Source: Methanobrevibacter sp. (lineage in GTDB: Archaea; Methanobacteriota; Methanobacteria; Methanobacteriales; Methanobacteriaceae). Taken from it: a stretch of 39,064 nucleotides of DNA. The notes beneath the pieces were generated by a model. The model was given only the letters and a program-made list of their open reading frames with translations. It was not told the origin of the DNA and searched no databases. This document shows positions 6,678-15,079 of the stretch, piece by piece; position 1 is the first letter of the stretch; every line of letters begins with the position of its first letter. The position numbers and the translations under genes were made by a program. The stretch lies in the NCBI RefSeq assembly GCF_017432245.1, contig NZ_JAFRJO010000015.1, positions 1 to 39,064 of the forward strand, read 5' to 3'.

Positions 6678-7184
6678 TTATTTGTAAATGACCAATTCCT
6701 CAATAGATTTTCTAGGAGTGTCTCTTGGCTCTGCATTTCCATAACCTAAAGGAGTGAATAATACAGGTTCCCATTCATCATCCAAATCAAGGAATTCCCT
6801 TGCAAGATCAGGCTTGAAGTTAGCAATGAAACATGTGTTTAAACCTAAATCCTCAGCTGCAAGAATCATATGTGTCATTACGATGGTAGCATCAATGTCA
6901 GCTATGTTCTTGTTGTCGAATTTTCTAGTCCATGCCTGTTCATTTGAAGCAACTACACAAAGGACTATTGGTGCTTCTGTAAACCATTCTGGTGGATAGA
7001 TAGCATTCAATTCCTCTTTATGCTTTTTAGCATCAATCACAATAACCTTAAAAGGCTGGAAATTAACTCCAGTTGGAGCAAGTTGAGCAGATTTCAATAT
7101 CTTATCCAATTTTTCTTGCTCCACTTCCTTATCTTCAAAGCCTCTCATACTGTATCTTTGTTCAATTACATCAAAAAATTCCAT
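6678..7184 (-). CDS. Nitroreductase family protein
   Basis: A 168-residue flavin-dependent oxidoreductase of the nitroreductase family. The N-terminal motif IEQRYSMRGFEDKEV (Arg residues for FMN phosphate), the SAQLAPTGVNFQPF segment and the C-terminal LFTPLGYGNAEPRDTPRKS are classic for the fold. The start at 7184 (MEFFDV) is chosen because it has GGAG eight bases upstream and the family begins here; the open frame runs to 7325 but overlaps the upstream gene. It lies 37 bp downstream of the citrate synthase-like gene, so it may be the last gene of the carboxylate cluster. The substrate is unknown. Confidence 0.85.
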   Translation of the reverse strand: MEFFDVIEQRYSMRGFEDKEVEQEKLDKILKSAQLAPTGVNFQPFKVIVIDAKKHKEELNAIYPPEWFTEAPIVLCVVASNEQAWTRKFDNKNIADIDATIVMTHMILAAEDLGLNTCFIANFKPDLAREFLDLDDEWEPVLFTPLGYGNAEPRDTPRKSIEELVIYK

Positions 7185-7221
7185 GTTTATTTCTCCATAA
7201 GTAATAGGATAATTATTATAA

Positions 7222-8064
7222 TTATTCTTCATTAATTTCTCTATTTTTAAAACCTTCATAAACGATATCTTCCAAATCACAGAAGCGTCTGAACTTCTCT
7301 TCCTCTTCCATTTCCTCATATGCATGAGCTACAAGTCCAGGAAGTCTTCCAATCATGAAAATGCCCAAACCTAAAGAGCTGTCAAATCCTAAATCAGAAA
7401 GCAATCCTGCATTGACACCATCAACATTCAAGCAAATTCCTTTCTTTTCAGAGAGTATGCTCTCGATTACAAGAGCCAACTTTGTATGTGGGCCAATAGC
7501 TGATTCTAAAATGGCTAAATCAAGTAATTTCACTGCACGAGGGTCCTTATCATGATACCTATGACCATAGCCAGGTACCCTTTTGGATTCGGATTGATAC
7601 TTATCAACAATTTCAATAGCTTTCGCTGCTATTTTCCTGTTTACATCCTCATCTGCAGTTTCCTCAAGGTTCAATGAACTGATTGATTCCTGGAATAATT
7701 CCATAGCCTTTTCAATAGCTCCTGCATGGTTTTTGCCAAAGGACAGCAATCCTCCTGCAACAGCATTGTTGATATTTGCACCGGATGATGCTATCAGTCT
7801 TGCAGACTGTGTACTTGGAGGAGTTACACCATGATCGCAAAATGAAACAAGAATATGGTTGAAGATCTTGGATTCCCTTTCATCAGGCAATCTTTCTCTA
7901 AGAAGCAAGAATACCATTTCTGCAAAGCTAAGATTTGTGATTAAATCTTCCTGATTATAACCTCTAGTAACCAATTCATTAGGCTTTACATCAGTAATCT
8001 TAGTTTTTATGCTGTGTTCAGGGAATTTAAAACCATTCTTGCCAGGTTTTGGATTATCGTTCAT
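7222..8064 (-). CDS. Citryl-CoA lyase-type citrate synthase homologue
   Basis: A 280-residue member of the citrate synthase superfamily, much shorter than ordinary citrate synthases (about 370-430). The catalytic His-His-Asp set is present: H113 in GKNHAGA, H168 in PGYGHRYHDKDPRA and D215 in LNVDGVNAGLLSDLG. The last motif, and the following GIFMIGRLPGLVAHAYEE, resemble the citryl-CoA lyase domain (C-terminal ACLY and Ccl) more than true citrate synthase. Known chemistry: formation or cleavage of a citryl-type CoA thioester, for example citryl-CoA to acetyl-CoA and oxaloacetate. The start at 8064 (MNDNPKP) has AAGGAG just upstream. Its neighbours suggest metabolism of a tricarboxylate or branched dicarboxylate; the substrate is inferred, not seen. 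Confidence 0.82.
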   Translation of the reverse strand: MNDNPKPGKNGFKFPEHSIKTKITDVKPNELVTRGYNQEDLITNLSFAEMVFLLLRERLPDERESKIFNHILVSFCDHGVTPPSTQSARLIASSGANINNAVAGGLLSFGKNHAGAIEKAMELFQESISSLNLEETADEDVNRKIAAKAIEIVDKYQSESKRVPGYGHRYHDKDPRAVKLLDLAILESAIGPHTKLALVIESILSEKKGICLNVDGVNAGLLSDLGFDSSLGLGIFMIGRLPGLVAHAYEEMEEEEKFRRFCDLEDIVYEGFKNREINEE

Positions 8065-8100
8065 AATATTCTCCTTAAATATCGTAAATAATCTATATAA

Positions 8101-8143
8101 TCTAATAATCATAGTCTAATAATCATTAGTCTAATAATCAATA
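8101..8143. repeat. Three direct copies of TCTAATAATCA
   Basis: The unit TCTAATAATC(A) occurs at 8101, 8115 and 8130, 14-15 bp apart, in the 146-bp spacer upstream of the citryl-CoA-lyase-like gene. Next to it on the minus strand is a TATA-like TTATATAG (about 8094-8103). The copies could be regulator half-sites or simple slippage products. Confidence 0.5.
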
Positions 8144-8210
8144 ATCTTAATTAAACTTGATATAATATAATTTTTTCTAATATTTAATTCTAATTTAGTT
8201 AACTCGCATA

Positions 8211-9095
8211 CTAAAATTCAAAGCTTGAAACTCTTGGCTCTACAAAACATGCCGGCCTTGCTGCTACAATTCTCACTCCACTTGCCCTTTGAGAGCCAAT
8301 ATTTACAAAAGAGCCAAGTACGGTGGTTTTACCACCAAGTCCTAAAGGACCGATATCTGTTTTGTTCAACTCTTCAGCAATGTAATTTTCTATTTCAGAT
8401 TGATTGTTCAAATTGCCATGAGCCAATGCTCTTAGCATCAATGCATTTGCTTCAAAGTGGGTTCTCCCAACTCCAATAGCTGGAATTGATGGAGTGCAAC
8501 CTAACATAGCCAATGATTCCTTTAGCCAATCTAAAGCTTCGCCAAAGACTATATTTGAGTCTCTTTTATGGAAAACCCTGTAGGTTTTTGCCCTTATTTC
8601 AGGACCTCCACCTTCCAATAGAATTGTGATTCTTATCTTATCATCATCCACACCAATCAGTCTTCCATAAGTGGATTCGTCTTTCTCTTCAATTAAAAAG
8701 GAAGCAGGCTTCATCATATTAGATTCATTGTATAAACCTTGTGATTGCTCAATGCGTTCCATATCATTTCCTTTAACTGCCATTGGCCTTCCTGGAAGCT
8801 TATCAAGTCCTTGTGAAATGCCAATATTGATTTCATTGAAAAATCCTTTAGGAATTTCCCTTTCCTTTCCTATTTCAATCAATACATGTGGAATTCCGGT
8901 ATCATCACATAATGGAAGCTTCTTATCATTAGCTACCTTAAAGTTTTCAATCATCTGTTCCAAGGCCCAAACTGCATTTTCATTGTTTAACTCCTTTTCC
9001 AACTTTAGAGCCTTTTCATAAGCGGATAGCCTGTCTTCACTATAGGAACTTCCTGCATTTACAACTGCATCTTGAACCTTTTCAATCAAATCCAT
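8211..9095 (-). CDS. Class I fumarase / tartrate dehydratase alpha-like subunit
   Basis: A 294-residue homologue of the alpha (N-terminal) subunit of Fe-S class I hydro-lyases, which add or remove water from fumarate/malate or L-tartrate-like acids. Three cysteines at the places expected for the [4Fe-4S] cluster are visible: C63 in LPLCDDTG, C200 in LGCTPSIPAIGVGRT and C283 near the C-terminus. The motif IGPLGLGGKTTVLGS is nearly canonical. The stretch around C200 departs from the usual CPPGIIGVGIGG form. No beta subunit is encoded in the window, so it either pairs with a distant FumB or works differently. It lies between the citryl-CoA-lyase-like and U32-like genes. Confidence 0.85.
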   Translation of the reverse strand: MDLIEKVQDAVVNAGSSYSEDRLSAYEKALKLEKELNNENAVWALEQMIENFKVANDKKLPLCDDTGIPHVLIEIGKEREIPKGFFNEINIGISQGLDKLPGRPMAVKGNDMERIEQSQGLYNESNMMKPASFLIEEKDESTYGRLIGVDDDKIRITILLEGGGPEIRAKTYRVFHKRDSNIVFGEALDWLKESLAMLGCTPSIPAIGVGRTHFEANALMLRALAHGNLNNQSEIENYIAEELNKTDIGPLGLGGKTTVLGSFVNIGSQRASGVRIVAARPACFVEPRVSSFEF

Positions 9096-9165
9096 AATAT
9101 CAACAATAATCTTAATTTGAAAAAATCAAAAAAACCATTTAAATGACTAAATCACAATAATTTTT

Positions 9166-10044
9166 TTATAATTTGCTCATTATAGCATCCGGATAATGCC
9201 TTTCAATTAAATCTCTAATCAACGCCACTTGCTTAGCTCTCTGACGAGCTTCCTTCTCAGTTGTGTCCCAACTATGATGCTTTGCAACAGATCCTCCTGT
9301 CTTCAAATAGACTGGACTTGCCACCTTAATCATTTCAGGAACTTCATAATGACGAATGAATCCTCCTGTTGACTTTGGATTTTCAGTATGGATATCAATT
9401 GGAATATCTATTGCATCACGCAATGATGCCAACATTGGAATCTGAAGGTCTCTTACAGGATTAAGTGAGTTCAATCCAATTGATTCAAAGAGTTTGGCTG
9501 AAGCAGGATTGGAACAGCCTGCATGAGCAGACAACTTAAACAGTAAGTCTTTAGGAAGTTCTCCTGCATCTCTCATTTTAGAAAGAGCATAAAGCAATCC
9601 TTCATCATATAATAAGATACCTCTAACTCCCAAATCAACTGCTCTTTTAACATCTTCAATAGCATAAACAAGGTTATTGTAACCTCTTAACCTATATCCT
9701 ATACGTTTTCCCTCTTCAGTTTGAACAGTAGCGCTTGTATCATAAGGAGCCCTTGGACCAACTGCTAAAAACAATTGCATATTTGCATCTTGAGCCAAAT
9801 CAACCATTTTGCTTATTTCATCATCCAATAGGAACATGATTCCTTTGGTTTGAGTGGCTCTATGAATTGTTAAGTCATAATCATTGGAAGCCTCTAAAAG
9901 AGATTCAAGTGCAGAAGGACCTTGTATTCCTGGAACTTCAAATCTATATTGTCCTCCATCTTCAAATCTCTTTTTGGATACATAATCATCATGTATTTCA
10001 TTGATTCCTAACTTTTCCAATGATTTTTTAGTTTCATCCATCAT
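9166..10044 (-). CDS. U32-peptidase-like TIM-barrel protein
   Basis: A 292-residue protein with the look of the U32 peptidase/collagenase-like barrel: ALESLLEASNDYDLTIHRAT, DVKRAVDLGVRGILLYDEGL, FKLSAHAGCSNPASAKLFES and LNSLNPVRDLQIPMLASLRD. U32 homologues that are not proteases often serve in cofactor or tRNA modification, so a peptidase role should not be assumed. In this cluster it could instead be a lyase or cofactor enzyme (inference). The start at 10044 (MMDETKK) is preceded by GTGATTTTT; the in-frame GTG farther up is part of that ribosome binding site. It lies 67 bp downstream of the MmgE/PrpD gene. Confidence 0.65.
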   Translation of the reverse strand: MMDETKKSLEKLGINEIHDDYVSKKRFEDGGQYRFEVPGIQGPSALESLLEASNDYDLTIHRATQTKGIMFLLDDEISKMVDLAQDANMQLFLAVGPRAPYDTSATVQTEEGKRIGYRLRGYNNLVYAIEDVKRAVDLGVRGILLYDEGLLYALSKMRDAGELPKDLLFKLSAHAGCSNPASAKLFESIGLNSLNPVRDLQIPMLASLRDAIDIPIDIHTENPKSTGGFIRHYEVPEMIKVASPVYLKTGGSVAKHHSWDTTEKEARQRAKQVALIRDLIERHYPDAIMSKL

Positions 10045-10111
10045 AAAAATCACTTTTTATAATTCATTATTTGATAATATTTAATTAATACCATTTTTAA
10101 ATCAAAAAATT

Positions 10112-11503
10112 TTAATCTAATAAATCCAATTCTTCAAAAACTTCTTGAATTGAATAATCTTCCATGTGTTTTATTATTTGTAACTTATTCCTATTAAACT
10201 TAAGATTTAAAAGTTTGAATTTCTCTAAAACATCTTCTTCTTTTAAAGGATTTTCCACTTCTCCCAATGGATAAAAAGTGGTTTCCTCCAAGATTTCATA
10301 TGAATCATCACTGAAATTTATAGTTACTTTAGATGGTCTTTTTTCTGGAGTCATTTGATTCAATTCTTCATTATTTTTGATATTGGTCTTTCTTACAATT
10401 TCTCTTATCTTCAAAATGTCCTTATCAGATGATTTTTCATCAAAAAGGCCATTGTCAATCAATTCATCAATTGAATCCAAACTCAAATCATCTACAACCA
10501 ATGCAATGGCTACTGCATAAGGCAATGATTGCTTTAAGTCCTGTTCATTTTTAGGATTATAATTGTCATGCTCACTTGCAATCTTATATGTTTCTATATC
10601 AATTGAAGAGATGTCTGAATAGTCAATTTCCAAATTATTCAACTCGTCCTTTAAAGTTAAAGTTGAATCAATTGCTGAATGAATATGTCTGCAGAATGGA
10701 TATTTCTTTAAATAGACATTGTTTATATGGAATTTGTTTAAATTCATATCAATGAACTGGGATAATTTTGAATCATCAGAATGCCTATCAAATAAATCTG
10801 AAGCCATAGATTTTATGAATCCTTCCTTTCCATCAATTAATGATTCCCCACCTGTAAATCCATTTTTAGCAAGATATGTTGACAAGATTCCATTGTAAAC
10901 TGCATTTCCAACATGCAATGATTTTCCCATTGTTCCTGCATGATCTGCTTCAAGAAGTCCTGAAGACTGGGTTGCACATAAACCTAAACAATGTTCTGTT
11001 TTCTCCTTATCCAATCTTAAAAGCTTTGATGCAACTGCTCCAGCAGCAAATGCGCCTATTGTTCCAGTGCTATGAAATCCCTGATTTCTATGATCTGGAT
11101 TGACGAGCATTCCAAGAGCAATGGCTATTTCATATCCTCCAATAACAGCTTCAAGAAACTCTTCAGATGTGAGGTCCAAGTCCAAATTCCTATCTGATAT
11201 CAATGCCAAAACTGTTGAAAAGACAACTGACCCAGGATGCAATTGTGCCCATCTATGGCCATCATCCAAATCCAAGCTATGTGAAGCAATTCCATTGATG
11301 AATCCTTTATTTAATGAATTAAAATCATTGCCGTATAATTCATAAATGGTTTTAATTGCTATTTTGGCATTTTCACTCTCCAATCCTCTTAGATAAACTG
11401 CCAAATAGTCAATGAAACATAATTTAGCCTTTTCAATAGCTTCTTTAGGAATATCATCATAACTTAAATTAACCAGATATTCAGACAATTGATTAATAAT
11501 CAT
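10112..11503 (-). CDS. MmgE/PrpD family protein
   Basis: A 463-residue MmgE/PrpD protein. This family includes 2-methylcitrate dehydratase, cis-aconitate decarboxylase and iminodisuccinate epimerase. Diagnostic stretches are GIASHSLDLDDGHRWAQLHPG, GGYEIAIALGMLVNP, GFHSTGTIGAFAAGAVASKL and GTMGKSLHVGNAVYNG, with YPFCRHIHSAIDS in the second half. The length matches the family. No clear ribosome binding site precedes the ATG at 11503, so the start is uncertain by a few codons or the message has a short leader. Its place beside a citryl-CoA-lyase-like and a fumarase-like gene favours a tricarboxylate or dicarboxylate substrate. Which of the family reactions it carries out is unknown. Confidence 0.88.
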   Translation of the reverse strand: MIINQLSEYLVNLSYDDIPKEAIEKAKLCFIDYLAVYLRGLESENAKIAIKTIYELYGNDFNSLNKGFINGIASHSLDLDDGHRWAQLHPGSVVFSTVLALISDRNLDLDLTSEEFLEAVIGGYEIAIALGMLVNPDHRNQGFHSTGTIGAFAAGAVASKLLRLDKEKTEHCLGLCATQSSGLLEADHAGTMGKSLHVGNAVYNGILSTYLAKNGFTGGESLIDGKEGFIKSMASDLFDRHSDDSKLSQFIDMNLNKFHINNVYLKKYPFCRHIHSAIDSTLTLKDELNNLEIDYSDISSIDIETYKIASEHDNYNPKNEQDLKQSLPYAVAIALVVDDLSLDSIDELIDNGLFDEKSSDKDILKIREIVRKTNIKNNEELNQMTPEKRPSKVTINFSDDSYEILEETTFYPLGEVENPLKEEDVLEKFKLLNLKFNRNKLQIIKHMEDYSIQEVFEELDLLD

Positions 11504-11649
11504 AATCTTATTTTTATAATTACTATATAATAAATTGATACAATATTAAAAAAAAAGAAACAAAAAAGTATTTGAAAAATTTAAAGATTTAAAGATTAAA
11601 AAAATATTAATTGTTAAAAATTATAAAAAAATTTAAAAAAAGAATTTAA

Positions 11650-13020
11650 TTATACCATTCCTGTAGCCACTAAAGTTATATGAGCAATAGCTGCAGAACA
11701 AAGGTAAGTTCCTGAAATCACAATTAATGTAATGACGATTCCTTTCCAACCGATCTTCTTGAACTCTTCCCAATCGTTACCGATTGCAATACCCACATAA
11801 GCCAAGAATGCAGTACAAATTGTAGTCAATTCAATTTGGGAAACATAACTAACTATAAAGTCAGCAGTTGGAACACCAGGAATAGCTACAAAAATACCGA
11901 TTAAACTTATGTAAATGATTGCTTGGATATTCCATGGAATAAGCCTTTCAAGAGACATACCTATGATTGTAATGAGTGAAATCAAAAGCATTCCAATGAA
12001 CGCATCAATGATTGAAGTATGGAATCCTATGAAATTACCTACAGCCACGATAAATGAAAACAATACCAAGAATGTTGCCCATCTTTCAAGCTTACCTACA
12101 GTCAATTCCTCTGTAGTTGCATACTTATCATGCTTTACCTCTTCAATAGCATAATCATCATCAATGCTTATTTTCTCCTCATGCCCTAATATATGAGGAG
12201 CTAGCCAATCATACATTCTTTCTGCAAGAGGCAAAGAAACGAAAATGCACATATAAATACCGAAACAGAATGAAAGAAGGTTACTGCATCCGGCAAAAGC
12301 TTCCAATTGAGTAGCCATTGATGGGAACATATGCATCAATGGAGCGAGAGCCGCAGCATTCATACTTGCACTTCCTACCCCTGAAGCCATAGCGTAAGCA
12401 TATGGGTGCATAGGAATGAGTGAAGCGCTGATACTTGATAAAAAGCTGATGAATGGAGTACCAAGAATGGATCCGATAACAAAAACAGCTAAAACTCCAC
12501 GAGTCTCTGGGGATTTGAAACCATACTTATCGATAATGACACCTAAGTTAGGTTCACGGCAGATTGAACTGGTCATACCTATAACTTCCCTTCTGAAACC
12601 GAAAAGCAGTGCAATAGGCAATGCCAAAAGGGTGCCTAGATTACCTATTTGCTGCAAGATCAAAGCAGGACCCACTTGGAAAATACTGGATATCGCTTGA
12701 CCACTTGAAATAGCCAATTTGGTGATTAATACACCGATGAATAAAACCATAGCCCCTTCAGCTACCTTGGATTGCTTAGGACCAACAAACTTAATAGGCT
12801 TTGCGAGATAAAGAGCCAATCCTAAAACAAGTGCATAGATTAAAGGCAATAATAAAACACTGATGGTATCGGTTATCTTTATTTCCTTAACTCCAATGAA
12901 CATGGAAATAATAACTAAAATAAATACGACAATATGTAAATTATACTCCTTCCATGGAGGTCTCTTCTTTATCGCCCCATCAGTTTTTTCCCTAAAAGGG
13001 TGTTGTTGACCGTCAGTAAT
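11650..13020 (-). CDS. DUF3100 membrane protein, copy 1 (apparent AUU start)
   Basis: A roughly 456-residue polytopic membrane protein of the DUF3100 family, possibly a transporter; the function is unknown. It has about ten to twelve hydrophobic helices, a conserved central motif MTSSICREPNLGVIIDKYGF, and the stretches MASGVGSASMNAAALAPLMH and QLEAFAGCSN. The first ATG (12903) falls inside the first membrane helix (LHIVVFILVIISMFIGV). Homology to copy 2 runs 39 codons further up to an ATT at 13018-13020, preceded by GGCGGGATTTT, and the open frame contains no ATG, GTG or TTG before its stop at 13057-13059. I therefore place the start at ATT, giving the basic, soluble N-terminus ITDGQQHPFREKTDGAIKKR. 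It is followed 146 bp later by the MmgE/PrpD gene. Confidence 0.8.
   Translation of the reverse strand: MTDGQQHPFREKTDGAIKKRPPWKEYNLHIVVFILVIISMFIGVKEIKITDTISVLLLPLIYALVLGLALYLAKPIKFVGPKQSKVAEGAMVLFIGVLITKLAISSGQAISSIFQVGPALILQQIGNLGTLLALPIALLFGFRREVIGMTSSICREPNLGVIIDKYGFKSPETRGVLAVFVIGSILGTPFISFLSSISASLIPMHPYAYAMASGVGSASMNAAALAPLMHMFPSMATQLEAFAGCSNLLSFCFGIYMCIFVSLPLAERMYDWLAPHILGHEEKISIDDDYAIEEVKHDKYATTEELTVGKLERWATFLVLFSFIVAVGNFIGFHTSIIDAFIGMLLISLITIIGMSLERLIPWNIQAIIYISLIGIFVAIPGVPTADFIVSYVSQIELTTICTAFLAYVGIAIGNDWEEFKKIGWKGIVITLIVISGTYLCSAAIAHITLVATGMV
12890..12996. repeat. Near-identical 107-bp block shared by the two DUF3100 genes (copy 1)
   Basis: Matches 14575-14681 at 106 of 107 bases, including 88 bp without a difference (12890-12977). 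The surrounding coding sequence of the two genes is visibly more diverged. The block codes for the N-terminal arm and first membrane helix. Confidence 0.9.
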
Positions 13021-13337
13021 AAAATCCCGCCTTAATTTAATGTATACATTTAAACTTTACATAGTAAATAAGTTTATGATTAAAGATTATAAGTTTATTA
13101 TTTATAAACTAATCTATTTAATTTTTAAAAATTATAAATCATGATAAATTATTGCTAAATTAGTTAAAATTTTTAAAAAATAATCAGTTAATTAAAAAAT
13201 TTATGAAAAAACTTACAAAAATGAGAAAAATTTTGAAAAAATTAAAAAATAATTTAAAAAAAAGAAAAAGGAATCTTTTAAATCATCCCTGTTAATAATA
13301 AGACTGCATTTGCAATGAAAAAAGAAAAAGGAATCTT
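13021..13337. other. 317-bp spacer between the DUF3100 genes
   Basis: It holds the promoter dyad of copy 1 and the left unit of the 60-bp tandem duplication. The remaining bases are A/T-rich with no gene. An 82-codon open frame here and over the end of copy 2 (13213-13461) is a by-product of the duplication. Confidence 0.6.
13092..13110 (-). promoter_or_regulatory. Shared dyad/TATA element upstream of DUF3100 copy 1
   Basis: The sequence AGTTTAT-TATTT-ATAAACT is a perfect 7-5-7 inverted repeat. The same element with one centre change lies upstream of copy 2. On the minus strand it contains TTTATAAATA, a good archaeal TATA box, 72-90 bp upstream of the proposed ATT start. It is followed on the plus strand by the also shared AATCTATTT. 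It is probably the promoter, and perhaps an operator. Confidence 0.6.
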
Positions 13338-13377
13338 TTAAATCATCCCTGTTAATAATAAGACTGCATTTGCAATG
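13258..13377. repeat. Perfect 60-bp tandem duplication at the 3' end of DUF3100 copy 2
   Basis: 13258-13317 and 13318-13377 are identical 60-bp units. The right unit holds the last 12 codons and stop (13338-13340) of DUF3100 copy 2; the left unit is a spare copy lying downstream of the gene. No deletion of the gene results. Confidence 0.92.
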
Positions 13378-14705
13378 CTTGCAGAACCAAGGTAAGTTCC
13401 AGTAATTACAATCATGGCAATAATGATTCCTTTCCAACCGATCTTCTTGAACTCTTCCCAATCGTTACCGATTGCAATACCGACATAAGCCAGGAATGCT
13501 GTACAGATTGTAGTCAATTCAATTTGGGAAACGTAATGAACCATAAAGTCAGCAGTAGGAACACCTGGAATAGCCACTATAATCCCAATTAAGCTTATGT
13601 AAATGATAGATTGGATATTCCATGGAATAATCCTTTCAAGAGACATTCCGATAATTGTAATAAGTGAAATCAAAAGCATTCCAATGAACACATCGCTTAT
13701 TGGAGTTTTATATCCTACGAAATTTCCAATAGCAACAATAAATGAAAATATTACAAGGAATGTAGCCCATCTTTTAAGCTTACCTGAACTTAAATCCTCT
13801 GAAGCGGCATACTTATCATCCTTTACCCCTTCAATTGCATACTCATCGTCAATGGTATGTCCATCATCTTTTCCTATTATTGGGGATAGCCATTTATACA
13901 TTCTTTCTGCAATAGGCAAGGAAATGAAAATACACATGTAAATTCCTAAACAGAATGAAAGGATATTACTGCATCCTGCAAAAGCCTCTAATTGAGTAGC
14001 CATTGCTGGATAAGTATGCACTAATGGAACCAATGCAGCGGCATTCATACTTGCACTGCCAATACCTGATGCCATTGCAAAGGCATATGGATGGAATGGT
14101 ATGAGTGAAACGCATATGCTTGAGAGGAAACTGATAAAAGGAGTGCCTATAATTGATCCAATTACAAAAATAGCCAAAACACCCCGAGTCTCTGGGGATT
14201 TGAAACCATATTTGTCAATGATAACTCCCAAGTTAGGTTCACGGCAAATGGAACTTGCCATACCTATAACTTCCCTTCTAAATCCTAAAAGCAAAGCTAC
14301 AGGCAGTGCTATAAGAGTACCTAAATCACCTAAAAGCTGTAAAATCAAAGCAGGACCTACATCAAAGATGATATCAATTGATTGCCCACTTGAAATGGCT
14401 AATTTAGCAATTAGAACACCTATGAATAAAACCATAGCACCTTCAGCTACCTTAGATTGCTTACTGCCTACAAACTTAATAGGTTTTGCCAAATAAAGAC
14501 CCAATCCCATAACTAATGCATAGATCAATGGCAATAGCAAAACGCTGATAGTATCTGTTATCTTAATCTCTTTTACTCCAATGAACATGGAAATAATAAC
14601 TAAAATAAATACGACAATATGTAAATTATACTCCTTCCATGGAGGTCTCTTCTTTATCGCCCTATCAGTTTTTTCCCTAAATGGATGTGAAGATTGATCT
14701 GTAAT
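13338..14705 (-). CDS. DUF3100 membrane protein, copy 2 (apparent AUU start)
   Basis: A roughly 455-residue paralogue of the preceding protein, colinear and highly similar throughout (for example MASSICREPNLGVIIDKYGF, MASGIGSASMNAAALVPLVH, AYVGIAIGNDWEEFKKIGWK). The two differ most in the soluble loop after about residue 270. As in copy 1, the first ATG (14588) lies within the first membrane helix. The homologous N-terminal arm begins at ATT (14703-14705), preceded by GGGAGTGATTTT, and the open frame back to the stop at 14736-14738 has no ATG, GTG or TTG. Direction and order make it the first gene of the cluster. The 3' end carries the 60-bp tandem duplication. Function is unknown; a transport role is inferred from topology and context. 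Confidence 0.8.
   Translation of the reverse strand: MTDQSSHPFREKTDRAIKKRPPWKEYNLHIVVFILVIISMFIGVKEIKITDTISVLLLPLIYALVMGLGLYLAKPIKFVGSKQSKVAEGAMVLFIGVLIAKLAISSGQSIDIIFDVGPALILQLLGDLGTLIALPVALLLGFRREVIGMASSICREPNLGVIIDKYGFKSPETRGVLAIFVIGSIIGTPFISFLSSICVSLIPFHPYAFAMASGIGSASMNAAALVPLVHTYPAMATQLEAFAGCSNILSFCLGIYMCIFISLPIAERMYKWLSPIIGKDDGHTIDDEYAIEGVKDDKYAASEDLSSGKLKRWATFLVIFSFIVAIGNFVGYKTPISDVFIGMLLISLITIIGMSLERIIPWNIQSIIYISLIGIIVAIPGVPTADFMVHYVSQIELTTICTAFLAYVGIAIGNDWEEFKKIGWKGIIIAMIVITGTYLGSASIANAVLLLTGMI
14575..14681. repeat. Near-identical 107-bp block shared by the two DUF3100 genes (copy 2)
   Basis: Partner of 12890-12996 at a fixed offset of 1685 bp, with one difference (14663) in 107 bases. 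Confidence 0.9.
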
Positions 14706-14788: not shown

Positions 14789-14934
14789 AATCTATTTTTT
14801 CCTCAAAAATGATAAATAATGATTAATAGTGATAAATAATGACAAATATGGCATAACTAGGTTAAATAAAGACAATACATCCAAATTAATTAAATTAGAA
14901 CAATGAACAATATTATTTAAAAAAATTAAAAAAT

Positions 14935-15060
14935 AGCCAAAAAATGAATGAAATAATTTAAAAAAAATAAAAATAAATGGCCAAAAACTGAATGAAATAA
15001 TTTAAAAAAAATAAAAATAAATGGCCAAAAACTGAATGAAATAATTTAAAAAATTAAAAG
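14935..15060. repeat. 44-bp tandem repeat, about three copies
   Basis: Units start at 14935, 14979 and 15023, each reading (A/G)GCCAAAAA(C/A)TGAATGAAA followed by an A/T tail. The first two are full length and the third loses similarity after about 31 bases. The array ends just before the stop codon of the TiaS gene. Together with the promoter dyad it is all that was seen in the 374-bp gap 14706-15079. Confidence 0.85.
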
Positions 15061-15079
15061 AAAATAAGAAAAATAAGAA

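Follow-up and report, generated by a model that had tools for sequence, protein, structure and literature searches.

On the minus strand of a contig from Methanobrevibacter sp. (NZ_JAFRJO010000015.1, assembly GCF_017432245.1; the whole stretch of 39,064 nucleotides is hereafter called the window), seven consecutive genes combine two membrane proteins with enzyme families that act on citrate-like acids, which raises the question of which acid they handle and in which direction. The initial annotation had read them as a pathway around a citrate-like polycarboxylic acid, with uptake and degradation of the substrate. The kept order of four of the genes supports a common pathway, and its direction is more likely anabolic than catabolic. 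These four genes are the core of the locus: an MmgE/PrpD-family enzyme (PrpD), a U32-like TIM-barrel enzyme (U32), a fumarase-type alpha subunit (Fum alpha) and a citryl-CoA-lyase-type enzyme (CCL). Together with a second fumarase-type beta gene elsewhere in the genome (beta2), the core may make 1,3,4,6-hexanetetracarboxylic acid (HTCA) or 2-hydroxy-HTCA, the acid at the end of methanofuran in the Methanobacteriales, a reading to which we give a probability of about 45%.

The seven-gene run from 6678 to 14705 was confirmed by open reading frame (ORF) calls and by Pfam and NCBIfam profiles, and the family assignments of the initial annotation proved correct. The features are as follows.

6678-7184, minus strand: nitroreductase-family flavoprotein, accessory (PF00881, 89.3 bits)
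7222-8064, minus strand: CCL, with a citrate-synthase C-terminal domain, core (NF004866, 430.9 bits)
8211-9095, minus strand: fumarase/tartrate-dehydratase-type alpha subunit, Fum alpha, core (PF05681, 162 bits)
9166-10044, minus strand: U32-like TIM-barrel enzyme, core (structure model; no profile match)
10112-11503, minus strand: PrpD, first gene of the core (PF03972, 199.5 bits; PF19305, 98.5 bits)
11650-13020, minus strand: DUF3100 membrane protein b, not core (PF11299, 289.6 bits)
13338-14705, minus strand: DUF3100 membrane protein a, paralogue of b, not core (PF11299, 280.8 bits)
13258-13377, minus strand: perfect tandem duplication of 60 bp across the 3' end of the DUF3100a gene (two copies, 100% identity)

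The likely gene starts are at 7184, 8064, 9095, 10044, 11503, 13020 and 14705, that of the U32-like gene being an ATG at 10044 with a GTG at 10053 as a possible alternative. From the nitroreductase gene to DUF3100a, the intergenic gaps are 37, 146, 70, 67, 146 and 317 bp; the last, between the two DUF3100 genes, exceeds the range of 37-146 bp given previously.

The order PrpD-U32-Fum alpha-CCL was found in all 55 loci with PrpD, U32 and CCL among loci L098-L163, which are mostly from Methanobrevibacter. The same order was found in the family of the window and in three other families of the phylum set, namely f4 (L078), f3 (L079 and L080) and f2 (L081 and L082), of which f2 appears to be Methanothermobacter-like and f4 Methanothermus-like; a further f2 locus (L083) ends near a contig edge after Fum alpha. 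In L078, PrpD and U32 were called as overlapping ORFs, followed by gaps of 0 and 1 bp. The ORFs of the relatives were taken from a mechanical caller, and small overlaps may be overstated because this caller uses the most upstream start. As exceptions to the order, U32 stands apart in genera g15 (L087) and g4 (L094), and extra ORFs separate PrpD from U32 in g10 (L093) and g16 (L089). The PrpD ORF was not called in L097, yet a match was placed there, and in L084, L086 and L092 the contig ends after a part of the cluster only. Given the order kept across families, the arrangement of the core is more than chance.

The distribution of the core was determined in 151 Methanobacteriota genomes. Matches were obtained for U32 in 128, PrpD in 127, Fum alpha in 125 and CCL in 121 genomes, and for none of the four in any of the 20 genomes of genus g3, which is probably Methanosphaera. 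In the 91 genomes with at least 90% completeness and at most 5% contamination, the corresponding numbers were 78, 78, 77 and 76; 13 of the 91 belong to g3, and by subtraction these are the 13 better-quality genomes that lack U32 and PrpD. A loss of methanofuran as the cause of this absence was considered and rejected: the methanofuran enzymes MfnB and MfnA remain in 20 and 19 of the 20 g3 genomes, respectively, so that this genus did not lose the methanofuran core. As one paper reports, M. stadtmanae lacks the molybdopterin synthesis needed for formylmethanofuran dehydrogenase and hence the stage from CO2 to the formyl group (PMC10658910). Among the controls, PF03972 gave no match in M. jannaschii and M. 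acetivorans, and NF004866 exceeded its cut-off in none of 14. The methanofurans of M. jannaschii and M. acetivorans are not known to contain HTCA.

The possibility that Fum alpha acts without a beta partner was rejected once beta2 had been found. All of 25 chosen genomes carry fumarase-type alpha and beta genes. The g3 genomes among them have one alpha and one beta each (6 of 6), and the 19 genomes with the cluster have two alphas in 18 cases (one in G030) and two betas in 16 (three in G000 and in G026, where one gene is in two pieces; one in G016). The divergent extra beta, beta2, defined as matches of 204 bits or more and leaving out a fragment of 58 amino acids in G006, was found in at least 121 of the 151 genomes and in 0 of the 20 g3 genomes among the matches listed. 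In the genome of the window it lies at G000:C44:12003-12500 and matches Fumerase_C. The cluster alpha is 43-56% identical to the alphas of bacterial clusters that contain a U32-like gene and 23-39% identical to canonical methanogen alphas; beta2 shares 41-58% identity with the betas of those clusters and 27-35% with two canonical betas. In the trees, the cluster alpha and beta2 group with the subunits of the bacterial U32 clusters, apart from canonical fumarase at 100/100, the beta tree including only the two canonical betas and an Adlercreutzia beta on a long branch. Because alpha and beta adjoin in the bacterial clusters, Fum alpha and beta2 are likely subunits of one enzyme.

The gene for beta2 had been picked by its phyletic distribution, and its neighbour on the same strand encodes MfnA, the tyrosine decarboxylase (TIGR03812, 551.8 bits; cut-off 299.4). 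Among the matches listed, with MfnA matches below the curated cut-off excluded, beta2 and mfnA share a strand and are no more than 1.5 kb apart in 39 of the 113 genomes that have both, and this proximity was seen in 13 of the 19 genera with beta2. In two deep branches, f4 (L195) and f3 (L197), the two reading frames overlap by 4 nt. In the genome of the window they are 939 bp apart with an ORF of 121 amino acids between them, mfnA being on contig C44 and the core on contig C75. The chance of adjoining any mfn gene is about 1 in 140, a rough single-event figure (six mfn genes, about 1,700 genes) and not a test.

A paper of 2021 lists six known mfn genes, states that the enzymes introducing the terminal moieties of methanofuran are still to be identified, and gives methanofurans a and c (MFR-a/c) as having terminal residues (PMC8141765). 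Another estimates that seven methanofuran proteins of Methanothermobacter are unknown, names MTH1116 as MfnA, and has coenzyme B synthesis pass through 2-oxoadipate (PMC3087415).

As a synthesis of HTCA, the route would begin with a condensation of the citrate-synthase type, in which CCL joins an acyl-CoA and a 2-oxoacid. With glutaryl-CoA and 2-oxoglutarate, this step would give the exact C10 skeleton of HTCA with a tertiary hydroxyl group (3-hydroxy-HTCA, perhaps as a thioester), and the glutaryl-CoA could derive from the 2-oxoadipate of coenzyme B synthesis. PrpD would then remove water from this citrate-like tertiary alcohol. In a third step, Fum alpha and beta2 might hydrate the neighbouring carbon to form 2-hydroxy-HTCA, or an ene-reductase might produce HTCA; 2-hydroxy-HTCA is the acid of M. 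smithii methanofuran-c, and HTCA is that of Methanothermobacter. Finally, a ligase would attach the acid to the gamma-glutamyl chain. None of these steps is assigned to the U32-like TIM barrel, although it belongs to the core. The scheme rests on the observed gene order, phyletic profile, second beta gene, and the kinship and position of that gene near mfnA; from these we infer the substrate, the order of the steps and the product.

Several observations weigh against an origin of the methanofuran terminus in this locus. In the largest genus, g5, beta2 is near mfnA in 0 of the 58 genomes with both, the two genes being 55-123 kb apart where they share a contig and otherwise on separate contigs. 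The proximity was not seen in g2, g4, g6 and g7, where the genes are often on different contigs, and in g8 the two genes are on opposite strands. Genus g3 lacks the cluster yet keeps mfnA and mfnB, and if the core makes HTCA, its methanofuran must therefore end differently. The absence profile rests on this one genus, perhaps on one loss. Two incomplete genomes, G010 (72% complete) and G135 (68%), hold beta2 with no match for U32, PrpD or Fum alpha. A ligase, a source of glutaryl-CoA and a common ene-reductase did not turn up, no search having been aimed at them, and the f2 genomes, taken here for Methanothermobacter, have no nitroreductase gene close to the core. White reportedly carried out labelling work on HTCA in 1987, and labelling that excluded an origin from glutaryl-CoA and 2-oxoglutarate would upset the first step. 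Since bacteria also carry the module, a substrate of U32 and Fum alpha that is exclusive to methanofuran is unlikely; bacteria are not known to have methanofuran, apart from the analogue of some methylotrophs. A literature search, which left most subscription and older papers outside its coverage, found no description of this gene set, no paper joining methanofuran with hexanetetracarboxylic, dicarboxyoctanedioic or tetracarboxylic acid, and none on MTH962-965.

The bacterial relatives bear on both the direction of the pathway and its product. A scan gave 470 U32-like relatives, of which the best 80 were kept. The closest named one, from a metagenome-assembled genome of Methanobrevibacter olleyae, is 96% identical to the protein of the window; nine of the 80 are bacterial (L164 and L170-L177; 63-66% identical), and all nine loci were mapped for ORFs, four of them (L170, L172, L176 and L177) being partly annotated with Pfam or NCBIfam. 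All nine bacterial loci have a PrpD relative (25-31% identical) close to U32, and in six of the nine Fum alpha is close as well. An ATP-grasp protein was present in 4 of the 4 partly annotated loci, with an L-amino-acid-ligase C-terminal domain in L172. Where the genes were tested, a PF15617 C-C bond lyase and a Fumerase_C beta were each found in 3 of 3 loci. Two annotated loci contain a thiamine pyrophosphate (TPP) enzyme and an aldo-keto reductase, and L170 contains a 2-hydroxyacid dehydrogenase. The glycan-type genes of the annotated loci encode, for example, RmlA, DegT, an MptE-like protein, Polysacc_synt or an acyltransferase. These clusters look like the synthesis of an acid and its coupling to an amine or a glycan, and because the bacterial relatives sit in such glycan-type clusters with ATP-grasp genes, biosynthesis is favoured over degradation.

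The same neighbours could mean that the core makes another polycarboxylic acid, such as a group carried by a wall polymer or by a glycan of the cell surface, and that the position of beta2 near mfnA is accidental. The association of bacterial U32 with RmlA, DegT, MptE-like, polysaccharide-synthesis and ATP-grasp genes speaks for such an acid, as do the identities across the domains (63-66% for U32 and 43-56% for Fum alpha), which suggest a common substrate. Yet none of the seven genes of the window is a glycan gene, the archaeal core has CCL in place of the PF15617 lyase of the bacterial loci, and neither the mfnA neighbourhood nor the absence from a genus that apparently does not reduce CO2 would be explained; we regard a glycan or wall acid as unlikely, if worth keeping in mind. 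A broader form of the HTCA proposal, in which the core and beta2 make HTCA and a U32-FumAB module exchanged with bacteria builds a related polycarboxylate there, attached to surface glycans by an ATP-grasp ligase, seems to us rather improbable. Were it true, one set of enzymes would make both the tail of an archaeal coenzyme and a bacterial glycan decoration.

Distant U32-like relatives on plasmids (four records) have sugar or small-molecule or uninformative neighbourhoods, and no common cluster was seen among them. On an Enterobacter plasmid (L210:8835-20439), a U32-like homologue (32% identical) lies amid apparent small-molecule biosynthesis genes, with iron-containing redox enzymes and an aminotransferase.

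The three genes outside the core follow a different distribution. The nitroreductase gene adjoins the core in loci of g1, g5, g6 and g7 and is 3.5-4 kb away in g10 and g16; none was seen near the core in the loci of f2, f3, f4, g9, g13 and g17. Of 60 relatives, 22 carry DUF3100. None of the 13 from the same order or class but another family than that of the window does, and all 13 have U32, PrpD and Fum alpha. Of the 48 loci in the set L098-L163 with upstream sequence, 41 have DUF3100 immediately upstream of PrpD, 3 have another ORF between the two, and 4 showed no DUF3100 upstream. Two g3 genomes (G020 and G035) have DUF3100 with the core absent. A seven-gene operon was thus rejected, because the deep branches showed neither DUF3100 nor the nitroreductase close to the core; both are probably later additions near it. 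The co-occurrence across genomes that had been suggested as a check holds for the four core genes, and a unit of seven genes is not supported.

The catabolic route, in which DUF3100 would take up a tri- or dicarboxylate for breakdown by CCL-, PrpD- and fumarase-type steps, has in its favour the position of DUF3100 directly upstream of PrpD in the 41 loci and the resemblance of its model to elevator transporters including CitS. The 13 genomes that keep U32, PrpD and Fum alpha without DUF3100, the two g3 genomes with the converse pattern, the lack of a CoA ligase or transferase among the seven genes of the window, and the biosynthetic-looking ATP-grasp clusters of the bacterial relatives (4 of 4) all count against uptake and degradation, to which we give little credence.

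The DUF3100 proteins themselves are clear members of their family, both scores being far above the PF11299 gathering score of 27. Their frames begin at ATT codons (13018-13020 for b and 14703-14705 for a, the DUF3100a frame being open from its ATT), and the first ATG would sit within the first membrane helix. The outer edge of the run at 14705 is sensible, because the ATT start is kept in relatives. Of 44 aligned starts, 35 were ATT, 7 ATC, 1 ATA and 1 TTG, the count including several genes that occur twice in the set and three sequences aligned at only 54-58% identity. The ATT, ATC and ATA starts (43 of the 44) are mostly preceded by a conserved GG-rich motif, and the kept rare codon could serve in start-codon-based regulation. 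The structure model of DUF3100b had a mean confidence (pLDDT) of 72.8 and gave no Foldseek hit under E 0.001 (CitS, E 4.5e-3, TM about 0.25). In the VIA comparison, NHA2 (Z 13.4; root mean square deviation (rmsd) 5.1, 288 aligned), SbtA (Z 13.2) and CitS (Z 13.0; rmsd 4.5, 290 aligned) were the best matches, at about the Z of 13 that calls for caution, since helical proteins can match by arrangement alone. The model is consistent with elevator-type secondary transporters and does not indicate a cargo. A literature search on DUF3100 found nothing, a weak negative, as most subscription and older papers lay outside its coverage.

Several further features of this region were observed. DUF3100 appears as two adjacent ORFs (about 230-310 and about 160 amino acids), as a putative split transporter, in many Methanobrevibacter loci and in G011 and G014 (L021, L035, L040, L090 and most of L117-L158). 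Large opposite-strand ORFs of 648-987 amino acids lie between DUF3100 and PrpD in some Methanobrevibacter (L025:3240-5186, L027:9789-12752, L032:6612-8630 and L036:5570-8479). In the window, the copies of the tandem duplication (13258-13317 and 13318-13377) each hold the 3' end of DUF3100a plus a T-rich stretch downstream, and the duplication is seemingly recent. AT-rich direct repeats with a spacing of about 44 bp occupy positions 14919-15073, between TiaS and DUF3100a.

A variant of the HTCA proposal is that free HTCA, one of the major anions inside the cell, is the main product of the core and that its use in methanofuran is secondary. One paper describes tetracarboxyhexane as a methanofuran component and, for the Marburg strain of Methanothermobacter (M. 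thermautotrophicus), as a major solute as well (PMC1224877), which fits a solute; the position of beta2 near mfnA would then be unexplained, and we judge this variant to have a low probability. That the core genes are only old neighbours without a joint pathway, in an order merely conserved in Methanobacteria, is very improbable: the flanking genes (TiaS, a helix-turn-helix regulator and genes read as A-type ATPase) are also in kept order, yet PrpD and Fum alpha recur near U32 in bacteria as counted above, and the four core genes and beta2 have one absence pattern.

In methanogenesis from CO2, the first carrier of the carbon is methanofuran, and a four-gene cluster with beta2, which can be expressed and deleted, makes the question of its terminal moiety testable in gut and rumen methanogens. 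If the HTCA proposal is true, a function would be given to a widespread TIM-barrel family now labelled as peptidase, as well as to two enzymes, of PrpD and fumarase type, whose automatic annotation would point to propionate or tricarboxylic acid cycle metabolism; the methanofuran of Methanosphaera would be predicted to end differently.

Several components of the locus resemble known systems and depart from them. The U32-like protein is modelled as a TIM barrel, the fold of the peptidase U32 family, and NCBI labels its distant homologues as U32 family peptidases. It has, however, no Pfam or NCBIfam match at E 0.001, PF01136 included, and no sequence relative in the PDB at E 0.1 or better, and its distant homologues have sugar or small-molecule genes as neighbours. 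The barrel of its AlphaFold2 model (pLDDT 85.2) had class II aldolases as the top Foldseek hits (E 2e-9, TM about 0.5), with the U32 peptidase Mk0906 at rank 20; in VIA, CutC led the list (Z 15.6; rmsd 3.0, 200 residues aligned) and Mk0906 scored Z 14.8, many barrels scoring alike.

In the methylcitrate cycle (PrpC-PrpD-PrpB), a citrate-synthase homologue carries out a condensation and a PrpD-type dehydratase follows, and the scheme proposed here would share this sequence of steps. The PrpD of the window exceeds the gathering score of 32.1 with both PF03972 and PF19305, and its nearest solved relatives are IRG1 of B. subtilis and IDS-epimerase; against the 2-methylcitrate dehydratase equivalog PRK09425 it reaches only 54.3 bits (cut-off 575). 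Likewise, CCL reaches 92.6 bits against the 2-methylcitrate synthase model TIGR01800 (cut-off 421.3). Both are thus far below the models of the cycle, no PrpB-type lyase is among the seven genes, and Fum alpha follows. With citryl-CoA lyase (6hxp, E 5.4e-58), CCL shares the short citrate-synthase domain, and it belongs to the PRK06224.1-3 subfamily (NF004866, cut-off 245), but no citryl-CoA synthetase is among the seven genes, and CCL stands in a polycarboxylate-type cluster. A second CCL paralogue lies near a canonical fumarase alpha gene and pst-like genes (a label read from the gene pattern) in f2, f3, g9 and g17 (L178-L182); it was dropped as a functional clue, these neighbours being uninformative.

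With class I fumarase (FumA, TtdAB), the alpha subunit of the window shares the Pfam family Fumerase and beta2 shares Fumerase_C. The two proteins fall below the NCBIfam cut-offs (Fum alpha, 94.7 bits against the class I fumarase alpha model PRK06246, cut-off 276) and are separate from the canonical methanogen enzyme, and the beta gene is unlinked. The bacterial U32-PrpD-FumAB-PF15617 clusters (Tissierella, Adlercreutzia, Clostridia and Bacteroidales) have a close U32-like protein, close Fum alpha and beta subunits and a distant PrpD relative; in them, the PF15617 lyase and, in two loci, the TPP enzyme and aldo-keto reductase replace the archaeal CCL, and glycan genes stand around. Finally, none of the genes of the window was recognised among the known methanofuran genes mfnA-mfnF; beta2 is placed near mfnA on one strand in the 39 genomes described above.

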